Positions 7,167-11,521 of a stretch of DNA of 35,892 bases are shown here, one piece after another. This DNA comes from Alkaliphilus sp. (lineage in GTDB: Bacteria; Bacillota; Clostridia; Peptostreptococcales; NVVX01): positions 1,074 to 36,965 of the forward strand of contig NVVX01000001.1 of the NCBI GenBank assembly GCA_002733545.1, given 5' to 3'. The translations under genes and the position numbers were made by a program. The notes below the pieces were generated by a model. The model had not been told where the DNA came from. It worked only from the letters and a program-made list of their open reading frames with translations, and ran no database searches. Numbering within the stretch: position 1 is the first letter of the stretch; each line of letters starts with the position of its first letter.

Positions 7167-7234
7167 TTGTTAGTATGGTTATTACATGAAATAGTGATTT
7201 TTTAGTTAGAAAGTATAAAAACAGGGGGAATGAC

Positions 7235-7753
7235 ATGTCTTTAGAAATTGAATTTTTCTTAAAGGTACTACTTGCAGTAGTAAGCTTTAGTTTTGCTGCT
7301 TACAAGATGTTTAAAAAAAAATACTATTTTATTCTATCAATAATTTTAGTGATGTTTGCTTATAATGTGATGGAGACAAATAGGATATATGAAATTGAAT
7401 TTCATCAAAGAACTTTTCAGGCAGATAGAATTGAAATTATTGATTTGAAGAATAATCGAATAATTAAAGTTGCAGCTGAAGAATTATTTAGAGATGTGCA
7501 CATTCTTACTACAAGAAGAGACAGATTCTCTAGAAACATTGTGATGGAGGAAATATATATCCTTAATTTCTATAAAAACGATAAAAAAATTAATAGTTTT
7601 ACATTACTAACATTTACGCAATCCAAGATAATATCAGGGGTACAGTTAACTACATTAAAAAAGGAAAGAGTAATTGCTAGAAGAAAAGGCGATTACCGTA
7701 GACTAGGACAAATGCTATATCGAAATTTAGAGAAAATATTGGAGAACAATTAA
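7235..7753 (+). CDS. Hypothetical protein with two N-terminal TM helices
   Basis: 172-aa ORF with agggggaatgacATG RBS/start, hydrophobic N-terminus (FFLKVLLAVVSFSFAAY, KYYFILSIILVMFAYNVM); no family recognised. Confidence 0.65.
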   Translation: MSLEIEFFLKVLLAVVSFSFAAYKMFKKKYYFILSIILVMFAYNVMETNRIYEIEFHQRTFQADRIEIIDLKNNRIIKVAAEELFRDVHILTTRRDRFSRNIVMEEIYILNFYKNDKKINSFTLLTFTQSKIISGVQLTTLKKERVIARRKGDYRRLGQMLYRNLEKILENN

Positions 7754-7788
7754 AATAGCAGGATGAGCAAAAAAGAGATTGTTTTTTG

Positions 7789-7827
7789 ATTATAACATTA
7801 GATATACTTGAAAACTAATGTTATAAT
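7789..7827 (+). promoter_or_regulatory. Perfect 13-bp inverted repeat with extended -10 promoter upstream of the ABC-3C operon
   Basis: attataacattag (7789-7801), 13-nt spacer, ctaatgttataat (7815-7827). The right arm contains TGtTATAAT, with TATAAT at 7822-7827. Confidence 0.7.
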
Positions 7828-7863
7828 GAATTAATATTGCGATGAAACTTAGGGGGATTATTA

Positions 7864-8835
7864 GTGAATCGATTGAATTATTTTAATTATATTGAAGAAA
7901 AATTAAACCTGTTAGCGACTAGAATAAAAAAGCGTGGCAAGCTGAATTTACTAGAGCTGAATATTCATTCTGAGAATTTTTATTGTGAATTGTTAAACAT
8001 GATTTTTGGCTTTAGTTTAGCAAATAGGAACTACGAAAAAAGAAATATCGAAGGTATAGATTTGATAGATAAAACTAATAGAATAGTTGTGCAGGTATCG
8101 GCTACATGTTCAAAACAGAAAATAGAGCAGTCTTTAAAAAAAGAAACATTGACAAGCTATGAAGGATATAGATTCATATTTGTATTAATATCTGGAGACG
8201 CAAGCATACTTAAGAAAAAAACTTATTTGAATCCACATAATATTTCATTTGAACCAAAAGCAGATATAATAGATTTAACTGATATATTGAATAAAATTTT
8301 TTGCAAATCTATAACAGAACTAAGAAGACTGTACGAATTGATTAAGGGAGAATTAGGTGAAGAAATAGATGTAGTAAAAATGGATTCAATCTTAGCAGGA
8401 ATTATTGATATACTGTCGAGAGAGCCGCTTGCAAACTCTATTGGCAAACCTGAAGTAGATACTTTTGAAATAATGAGAAAGATTGAGTATAATAATCTAG
8501 TAAACACAAAAATGATAATTAATGATTATAAAATTTACTATCACAAAATAAACCAAAAATACAAAGAATTTGACAAGCAAGGCGCTAATAAGAGCATGTC
8601 AGTTTTTCAAACAATTAAAAAACAATATAGCATTGAAATGGATGAATGCAAAGACGAAGATGAAATATTTCTTAAGGTCATAAATAACATTATGACTATA
8701 GTAATAACTAGTAAAAACTATGTAGAAATTACATTTGAAGAATTAGAAATGTACACGGGGATACTTGTGGTAGATGCGTTTATTAGATGTAAAATTTTCG
8801 AAAATCCGGAGGGATATAATTATGTTATTACCTGA
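7864..8835 (+). CDS. SMEK domain-containing protein, first component of an ABC-three-component (ABC-3C) system
   Basis: N-terminal region SENFYCELLNMIFGFSLANRNYEKRNIEGIDLIDKTNRIVVQVSATCSKQKIEQSLKK resembles the SMEK domain. GTG start after agggggattatta; first gene of a three-gene overlapping operon. Confidence 0.75.
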   Translation: MNRLNYFNYIEEKLNLLATRIKKRGKLNLLELNIHSENFYCELLNMIFGFSLANRNYEKRNIEGIDLIDKTNRIVVQVSATCSKQKIEQSLKKETLTSYEGYRFIFVLISGDASILKKKTYLNPHNISFEPKADIIDLTDILNKIFCKSITELRRLYELIKGELGEEIDVVKMDSILAGIIDILSREPLANSIGKPEVDTFEIMRKIEYNNLVNTKMIINDYKIYYHKINQKYKEFDKQGANKSMSVFQTIKKQYSIEMDECKDEDEIFLKVINNIMTIVITSKNYVEITFEELEMYTGILVVDAFIRCKIFENPEGYNYVIT

Positions 8836-9049
8836 TAATATTCTGCCAGAACTGAGTATTTATTACAATGGAGCTGTGCTTTTAGAAGAATTGCAAAGCA
8901 AATCTGTCTCGCCGATGATGGATTTATATCAACTGGTTAAAAGTAAAAACGAGACTTCTTTTTCGACGTTTATATTGTGTCTAGACTGGCTGTTTCTAAT
9001 TGGAGTTGCAAAATTGAACGATGAAGGTGCGGTGGAGCTATGTTCATAA
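8822..9049 (+). CDS. ABC-three-component system middle component (small protein, MC6-like)
   Basis: 75-aa product MLLPDNILPELSIYYNGAVLLEELQSKSVSPMMDLYQLVKS... with ggaggg RBS before ATG 8822. The ORF-track start at 8774 is a longer in-frame alternative. Position between SMEK and DUF2326 genes and size fit an ABC-3C middle component. Confidence 0.65.
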   Translation: MLLPDNILPELSIYYNGAVLLEELQSKSVSPMMDLYQLVKSKNETSFSTFILCLDWLFLIGVAKLNDEGAVELCS

Positions 9050-10761
9050 AGGAACTAAAAATTATAGGTAAAGGGATAGTTATAAGAAAAATAAAGTTCC
9101 ACAAAGGGATTAATTTAATTGTAGATGAAACACCAACTACTGACGAAAAAAGCACAGGAAATAATGTTGGAAAAACCACAGTTTTAAAGTTGATTGATTT
9201 TTGCTTAGGAGCTAAAGCTTCAATAATCTACACAGATGAAGAAAACAAAAAAGATATTTATCTTCTTGTGAAAGAGTACTTGATTGAGCATAAAATTCTA
9301 ATTATATTAACTCTTACGGAGGATTTAGATAGTTTAGATGTAAAAGAAATCTTTATAGAAAGAAACTTTTTATTAAGAAAAGAAACGATTAGAAAAATAA
9401 ACGGTATTCAGTATAGTGAAAAAGAGTTCGAAACGGAGCTCTTAAAGTTGATAATACCAGGGCATAAATTAGAAAAACCCTCGTTGAGACAAATTATTTC
9501 ACATAACATTAGGCATAAGAACGAAACTTTAAACAACACTTTAAAAACGCTAAGCAGCTATACTACTGATGTTGAATACGAAACTCTGTATCTATTTCTT
9601 TTGGGTTGCGATTTTGATGGAGGCTCAAAAAAATATACTATTCTGGCGGAAATTAAACAAGAAATTAAGTATAAGAAGAGGCTAGAAAAAACGCAGACCA
9701 GAAATGCATATGAGATTGCACTTACAATAATTGACGATGAAATAACAGAACTCAATAAAAAGAAGTCTAACTTCAATTTGAATGAAAATTTTGAAGTTGA
9801 TTTAGACAACTTAAATAAAATAAAGTGGAGAATCAATAAAAAAAGTTCAAAGATTAGCAACTTGAAAATACGTTTAGATTTGATTAATGAAGCAAGAGAA
9901 GAAATGAGAAATAACACTTCGCAAATCGATTTGAGACAACTTAGAATGATATATGAGCAGGCAGTGCAAAATATTATGGGGATACAGAAAACTTTTGAGG
10001 ATTTAGTAGCTTATCATAATGGAATGATTTTGGAAAAAATCAAGTTTATTTCTGCCGAATTGCCATCATTAGAGAAGAATATAAAAAACGAAGACAGCGC
10101 ACTTAATAGATTACTTCAAGAGGAAAAAGAATTGATTAATAAGATATCTAAAAGTGAAACTTTTGAAGAGCTCGAGGTACTAATCATTGAGTTAAACGAA
10201 AAACATAAGTCAAAAGGAGAATATGAAGCGATTGTTGCGCAAATTGAAGAAGTAGAAAATAACATTAAGAAATATAATATTGAGTTAGAAATAATCGAAG
10301 ATGAATTGTTCACAGGAAATTTCGAGAGCAAATTGAAATCTAGACTTACAAAATTCAATAAATATTTCTCGGAAGTTTCAAATGAACTTTATGGCGAAAA
10401 ATACGCATTAAAATATGATGTCATAGTGAATAAAGAAAATAAAAAAATTTACAAGTTCAGCGCTTTTAATGCAAATTTGAGTTCTGGGAAGAAACAAGGA
10501 GAAATAGTTTGTTTTGATTTGGCTTATATTTTGTTTGCTGACAATGAAAAAATATCATGTTTACATTTCTTGCTAAACGATAAAAAAGAGCTAATGCACG
10601 GGAATCAACTAGTGAAGATATCGGAATTTATTAGAAATAAAAATATTCAATTAGTTTTCTCGATTTTAAAGGATAAATTACCGAAAGAAATAGATGTTGA
10701 AAAAAACATAATTATAAGATTATCGCAGGATAGTAAGCTGTTTAAGATCGAGTCAAATTAG
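9040..10761 (+). CDS. DUF2326-type SMC/RecN-like ABC ATPase, third component of the ABC-3C system
   Basis: Walker A GNNVGKTT in NNVGKTTVLKLIDFCLGA, long central coiled coil, signature-like LSSGKKQGEIVCFDLAYILF and downstream LHFLLND (Walker-B/D-loop area), as in DUF2326 proteins. Confidence 0.8.
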   Translation: MFIKELKIIGKGIVIRKIKFHKGINLIVDETPTTDEKSTGNNVGKTTVLKLIDFCLGAKASIIYTDEENKKDIYLLVKEYLIEHKILIILTLTEDLDSLDVKEIFIERNFLLRKETIRKINGIQYSEKEFETELLKLIIPGHKLEKPSLRQIISHNIRHKNETLNNTLKTLSSYTTDVEYETLYLFLLGCDFDGGSKKYTILAEIKQEIKYKKRLEKTQTRNAYEIALTIIDDEITELNKKKSNFNLNENFEVDLDNLNKIKWRINKKSSKISNLKIRLDLINEAREEMRNNTSQIDLRQLRMIYEQAVQNIMGIQKTFEDLVAYHNGMILEKIKFISAELPSLEKNIKNEDSALNRLLQEEKELINKISKSETFEELEVLIIELNEKHKSKGEYEAIVAQIEEVENNIKKYNIELEIIEDELFTGNFESKLKSRLTKFNKYFSEVSNELYGEKYALKYDVIVNKENKKIYKFSAFNANLSSGKKQGEIVCFDLAYILFADNEKISCLHFLLNDKKELMHGNQLVKISEFIRNKNIQLVFSILKDKLPKEIDVEKNIIIRLSQDSKLFKIESN

Positions 10762-10913
10762 CAAATCAATATTTTTATTTCGGGCGCAGAAAAGTTAGAA
10801 GTAAAAAAACATTGTACTTGCACCAATGGATATTTTGATTGACATGTTTTGTTGCGAGATATGAATTATTTTAACGCCAATAATATATTTTTGATAAATA
10901 CGGAGGTATAATT

Positions 10914-11474
10914 GTGAAAAACAGATGCGGATGGGTAGGAAAAGAGGCTATATACATTAAATACCATGATGAAGAATGGGGTGTGCCAGTTCATGATGAT
11001 AAGCAATTATTCGAAAAATTAATTTTAGATGGTGCACAGGCGGGATTAAGTTGGATTACAATACTCAAAAAACAACAAAACTACAGAGAGGCTTTCGACG
11101 GGTTCGATGCAGAAATAATTGTGAATTATAATGATGTAAAGATTGAAGAGCTAATGCAAAATAGCGGAATAGTTCGTAACAGAAGAAAAATTGAATCAGT
11201 TGTTAAAAATGCTCGTGCTTTCTTAGAAGTGCAAAAAGAATTTGGCAGTTTTGATAAATACTTGTGGCAATTTGTAAATTATAAGACTATTAAAAGCAGA
11301 TGGGAAAATATCAAAGATGTACCTTCGAAAACTAAAGAGTCAGAAAAAATGAGTAAAGATATGAAGAAGAGAGGCTTTTCTTTTGTTGGGGCAACAATAT
11401 GCTACGCTTTTATGCAGGCAATTGGTATGGTAAATGACCATGTAGTTACTTGCTTTAGACATGAAGAAGTGTAG
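10914..11474 (+). CDS. tag: DNA-3-methyladenine glycosylase I
   Basis: RCGWVGKEAIYIKYHDEEWGVPVHDDKQLFEKLILDGAQAGLSWITIL and C-terminal MKKRGFSFVGATICYAFMQAIGMVNDHVVTCFRH are characteristic. Confidence 0.93.
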   Translation: MKNRCGWVGKEAIYIKYHDEEWGVPVHDDKQLFEKLILDGAQAGLSWITILKKQQNYREAFDGFDAEIIVNYNDVKIEELMQNSGIVRNRRKIESVVKNARAFLEVQKEFGSFDKYLWQFVNYKTIKSRWENIKDVPSKTKESEKMSKDMKKRGFSFVGATICYAFMQAIGMVNDHVVTCFRHEEV

Positions 11475-11521
11475 AGAGTTTTTTGTGTTTTAAAAATTAA
11501 GAGACTAAAGAGGTGAATTTT

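Follow-up and report, generated by a model that had tools for sequence, protein, structure and literature searches.

ABC-three-component (ABC-3C) systems were reportedly predicted by Krishnan et al. in 2020. They combine an SMC/Rad50-like ATPase, an effector whose N-terminal domain is enzymatic and whose C-terminal domain is of an ABC-3C type, and a small middle gene between the two, and their distribution is sporadic and mobile. In a review of the Lamassu superfamily, whose layout is LmuA, LmuC and LmuB, they are counted as included (PMC10586767). A second point of reference is the short-Argonaute system SPARDA, since the SMEK-APAZ/short-Ago complex of Kordia is reported to have weak collateral nuclease activity on both double- and single-stranded DNA (PMC12205087; also PMC10810196). 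For the ABC-3C type composed of SMEK_N/CTD10, MC6 and DUF2326 (PF21941, PF20275, PF20293, PF10088), we found no experiment in the open literature; literature matches for 'SMEK' concerned the eukaryotic protein of that name, a PP4 subunit that is unrelated to the bacterial SMEK domain and shares its name by coincidence.

The stretch of DNA analyzed here (the window; 35,892 nucleotides from an Alkaliphilus sp. genome) carries all of these components: three overlapping forward-strand genes encode, in this order, an effector consisting of SMEK_N and CTD10, Middle Component 6 (MC6), and a DUF2326 ATPase (Table 1). The tight operon described in an earlier note on this sequence was recovered with all open reading frames in place, with overlaps of 14 nt (effector/MC6) and 10 nt (MC6/ATPase). 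The MC6 start at 8822 is backed by a GGAGGG ribosome site and by homologues, while the ORF lister had placed it at 8774. Pfam recognized SMEK_N (8e-43), CTD10 (1e-28), MC6 (2.2e-24) and DUF2326 (4e-20), all over the curated cut-offs, and NCBIfam likewise assigns SMEK_N to the effector. These matches are far beyond chance and fit the ABC-3C layout, bearing out the earlier proposals that the first and third products resemble SMEK and DUF2326, that they enclose a middle component of about 75 aa, and that the operon is to be filed under ABC-3C; the label 'SMEK-like' was correct for the N-terminal domain, but left the second, diagnostic domain, CTD10, unnamed. NCBI annotation uses the same ABC-3C names for relatives in Priestia and Escherichia coli. 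Compared with described SMEK_N/CTD10, MC6 and DUF2326 systems, the window has the same components, order, overlaps and lengths, and we found no difference of substance. We regard the operon as a divergent but otherwise unremarkable representative of a named, little-tested ABC-3C class.

Table 1. Features of the ABC-3C operon and its surroundings (window coordinates; amino acid positions refer to the respective protein)
Feature	Position	Strand	Remarks
Segment absent in congener G002	7168-11501	+	Holds ORF172 (7235-7753), ABC-3C operon and tag (10914-11474)
Cassette unit common to window and congener G001	about 7782-10795	+	92.2% nucleotide identity
Inverted repeat	7789-7827	+	Perfect, 13 bp, 13-nt spacer; TATAAT (-10-like, 7822-7827) in right arm
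Effector gene (SMEK_N+CTD10)	7864-8835	+	GTG start after AGGGGG; 323 aa
SMEK_N nuclease domain (putative activity)	aa 9-145 of effector	+	Pfam, PDB sequence match
CTD10 docking domain	aa 177-313 of effector	+	Pfam
MC6 gene	8822-9049	+	ATG start; 75 aa; Pfam MC6
DUF2326 ATPase gene	9040-10761	+	ATG start; 573 aa; SMC/Rad50/LmuB-like coiled-coil ABC ATPase
Walker A, GNNVGKTT	9157-9180 (aa 40-47)	+	G40, N41, G44, K45 and T46 invariant in 71 homologues
ABC signature, LSSGKKQ	10477-10497 (aa 480-486)	+	SSGKKQ conserved in homologues
Walker B, FLLND, with K515	10567-10584 (FLLND 10567-10581, aa 510-514)	+	Model strand 510-514; homologue alignment

Scanning one genome per species yielded 157 relatives, 80 of which were retained. 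All three genes are intact and in the same order in 70 of these loci; six are complete but have a broken reading frame, two have a degraded effector, and two are truncated by a contig end. Two loci without SMEK_N (L043 and L054) were considered as effector swaps, but were read as degraded genes instead. Gene overlaps are nearly constant across bacteria and archaea: of 71 operons, counting that of the window, 68 have an effector/MC overlap of 14 or 17 nt, and 67 an MC/ATPase overlap of exactly 10 nt. Furthermore, distances between the ATPases correlate with those between the SMEK proteins (rho 0.81; permutation maximum 0.18). Fixed order, kept overlaps and correlated distances together indicate that the three genes travel as one unit, and they are probably translationally coupled. 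The overlaps (8822-8835 and 9040-9049 in the window) also tie together the codons at both gene ends. MC6 is presumed to be an adaptor between effector and ATPase. The inverted repeat ahead of the effector gene occurs as a perfect match only once in the genome and never in 100 shuffles; it likely overlaps the operon promoter and may be a candidate operator or hairpin. As a family-wide operator it was rejected, since it is not conserved in homologues.

When the effector sequence was searched against the PDB, only one hit was convincing: 26bh, the Mrr/SMEK domain of the Mrr-APAZ pAgo from Kordia jejudonensis, at 3e-13 with the single sequence and at 2e-20 with a 46-sequence profile; the best PADLOC match is an Argonaute-associated REase protein. 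Five effector residues (E37, D66, Q77, S79 and K86) are invariant in all 71 homologues, and the corresponding E, D, Q and K are retained in the homologous domain of the Kordia SPARDA protein. Judging from this conservation, E37, D66, Q77 and K86 would be catalytic and would form a PD-(D/E)XK-type site of the form E...D...QxS, with the lysine shifted to the next helix. In the AlphaFold model (mean pLDDT 80), the N-terminal half combines helices with a small sheet, and the C-terminal half is all helical. A Foldseek search of this model against the PDB returned nothing at E<=0.001, the best matches being Bacillus subtilis YydB (0.019) and LmuA (2.3); given these weak matches, the assignment of the window effector as a putative SMEK_N nuclease rests on sequence homology. 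The two systems differ in their sensors, a guide-RNA Argonaute with APAZ in SPARDA and an SMC-like ATPase with a middle component in the window.

Both halves of the effector also occur in other settings. CTD10 follows other, Pfam-unnamed N-terminal domains in four loci (L097, L098, L099 and L101; an example is SEGQAYENLF...YGNIGD in L097), and these domains probably represent another effector type; in L097-L099 the genes lie beside ATPase genes. The PDC-M68A models of PADLOC match the CTD10 proteins of L097 and L098, but do not match the SMEK effector of the window, although PDC-M68B is the best match of its ATPase. A NACHT/NPHP3-like ATPase encoded on a plasmid of Staphylococcus equorum (1434 aa; L110:4001-8305), yet another sensor type, carries SMEK_N as a fusion. 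The presence of CTD10 behind other N-terminal domains, together with this fusion, indicates that sensor and effector are separable modules.

In the DUF2326 ATPase, the Walker A motif of the earlier note holds, and its LSSGKKQ is the ABC signature, but FDLAY, which the note lists after the latter, belongs to the following helix rather than to Walker B, which is FLLND. Most ABC ATPases have a catalytic glutamate directly after Walker B. Here, a lysine occupies this position, and D514-K515 is found in 71 of 71 homologues; at this place, HDS and QDS are seen in two distant DUF2326 proteins. None of the 71 homologues contains a CxxC zinc hook. The ATPase model matches the folds of B. subtilis YydD (6.5e-20) and Salmonella LmuB (5e-10 and 1e-9; 9hqx/9hqu), as well as those of LmuAB-DNA, SMC heads and Rad50, while a sequence search of solved structures gave coiled-coil chance matches only. 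Among known folds, YydD matches the ATPase best, and its partner YydB is likewise the best, if weak, fold match of the effector; sequence identity between the window proteins and the YydD-YydB pair is low (16–19%), and the YydD-YydB entry, 9a6c, is itself an integrative model. The PADLOC LmuB HMM recognizes the window ATPase (1.9e-12) and 45 of 46 family members, and PDC-M68B matches the window protein at 3.5e-34 and all 46 members. In the ATPase tree, the window protein branches off first within a clade rich in Bacillota.

The operon is similar to Lamassu (LmuACB/DdmABC) in its three-gene layout, its variable N-terminal effector domain, and its SMC-like ATPase, which matches LmuB by both HMM and fold and has lost the catalytic glutamate, as has LmuB, where it is generally replaced by glutamine (PMC10586767). 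Unlike Lamassu, it has a SMEK_N+CTD10 effector, MC6 rather than LmuC, no CxxC zinc hook, and lysine, not glutamine, at the glutamate position. Of Lamassu in the narrow sense (LmuACB), LmuB was recognized, but the PADLOC LmuA and LmuC models did not match the effector and MC6 up to E=1.

Comparison with congeners showed that the cassette is mobile, with reciprocal empty sites within the genus. In one congener (G002), snf2 and hisS are direct neighbors, and everything between 7168 and 11501 of the window is absent. In another (G001), the cassette lies elsewhere in the chromosome, flanked by genes for a phosphatidylserine decarboxylase-like protein and a small membrane protein, and this site is empty in the genome of the window, where 117 bases separate the matched flanks. 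These flanks are 76–86% identical between the two genomes; the higher identity of the cassette (Table 1) fits a separate acquisition. No terminal repeats or target-site duplications were seen at the cassette edges. The effector and ATPase genes of the G001 copy have frameshifts, which are either real decay or draft errors. Beside this copy lies a phosphoribosyltransferase-like fragment (L094:10005-10409) that was not found in the other two congeners and is perhaps part of another inserted element.

The earlier note had described an acquired island between SNF2 on one side and tag/hisS on the other. Empty-site comparison with two congeners confirms the island; however, since the segment absent from G002 includes tag (3-methyladenine glycosylase), this gene is part of the variable stretch and not a fixed border. 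In G002, a 94% identical tag is found elsewhere (L092:3477-4037), near mutS and a relBE-like pair and without the cassette, and tag itself seems to have moved. The segment also holds ORF172, whose 172-aa product has a hydrophobic N-terminus and no family match.

Relatives are patchily distributed across many bacterial phyla and archaea. Consistent with an acquired, non-universal cassette, the CTD10 family was found in only 10 of the 391 genomes of the class. Phyla are intermingled in the ATPase tree, with Bacillota requiring five changes and Bacteroidota eight. Of 5426 E. coli genomes, 34 contain DNA relatives of the ATPase gene, in every case on the chromosome. In the two copies inspected, the full operon is annotated; one adjoins tRNA-Thr after proA, the other a prophage with an integrase remnant, and in both a higA-like gene and the conjugation genes traJ/trbJ/trbL follow. 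An intact E. coli homologue (L107:7709-10623) has proteins that are 43% and 56% identical. Plasmid-borne copies occur in Priestia and Caballeronia, and a search of phage records with the ATPase found none.

This distribution bears on two other explanations. The operon could encode a housekeeping complex for DNA repair or recombination, with SbcCD/Rad50-like end processing, that is mobile by chance; although an ATPase of SMC/Rad50 fold with a nuclease partner, followed by a DNA glycosylase gene, would suit such a role, we regard it as very improbable in view of the patchy occurrence, the empty sites in congeners, the copies on islands and plasmids, and the unrelated location of tag in the cassette-free G002. 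Somewhat less remote, but still improbable, is that the cassette guards its carrier element, in inter-element competition or in an addiction-like manner, rather than the host against phage. The conjugation and HigA antitoxin genes near the E. coli copies and the plasmid-borne relatives speak for this, but the operon has no immunity partner, and no mobile-element genes were recognized beside it in the window. Such a role would be compatible with phage defense rather than exclusive of it. A tRNA scan of the window was negative. The flanks of 35 relatives contain a few known defense genes (type III RM, Wadjet JetA/B, Shedu SduA, Druantia DruM, AbiEi); as these were counted without a control set, we do not use them as proof of a defense island.

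We consider it probable, with some reserve, that the operon is a mobile ABC-3C (Lamassu-superfamily-like) defense cassette, in which an SMC-like sensor releases a DNA-cutting, cell-disabling nuclease on foreign DNA and which would thereby protect against phage or plasmid. By analogy with Lamassu, the DUF2326 protein would dimerize via its ATP-bound SMC/Rad50-like heads and bind foreign or aberrant DNA, such as ends, hairpins or replication intermediates. With lysine in place of the catalytic glutamate, ATP would be hydrolyzed slowly or not at all and would serve chiefly as a binding switch. MC6 and CTD10 would keep the SMEK_N nuclease inactive in the complex and, upon DNA engagement, pass the signal on, so that SMEK_N domains are freed or clustered. 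Cleavage of DNA by these domains would be independent of sequence; it would destroy the invader and probably also disable the cell. Activation of this kind has parallels in SPARDA, whose related nuclease domain is activated by tetramerization (PMC12205087), and in Lamassu, for which solved structures bear titles that refer to a nuclease-sequestration state and to a DNA-bound LmuA tetramer.

With the same architecture, the effector might instead cut only the sensed DNA, in a restriction-like manner without collateral killing, as Wadjet, which is likewise SMC-based, targets plasmid DNA directly (PMC10586767); coexpression of nuclease and sensor in a fixed geometry would also agree with this. We consider this unlikely, since the nearest characterized SMEK nuclease, that of Kordia, shows collateral cleavage (PMC12205087), and Lamassu, which includes the nearest characterized relatives of the sensor, is thought to act by abortive infection (PMC10586767).

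Within the defense reading, a more specific and tentative possibility, to which we give somewhat over one chance in three, is that SMEK/CTD10/MC6 systems constitute a Lamassu-like class of their own, whose hydrolysis-deficient ATPase, with its lysine invariant in bacteria and archaea, serves as a one-way DNA-triggered switch driving the nuclease also employed by SPARDA. To the named type, the present analysis adds the predicted nuclease identity of the effector and its link to Argonaute systems, the lysine that invariably follows Walker B, the conserved gene overlaps, the sites that are reciprocally empty, and the E. coli homologue. The invariant residues in nuclease and ATPase, the intact E. 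coli homologue and the naturally empty sites in congeners are testable handles. Furthermore, the effector of Argonaute SPARDA systems is here tied to an SMC-like sensor, which allows its activation by two unrelated triggers to be compared; if the separate class is real, one effector would be plugged into both guide-directed and guide-free DNA sensors.
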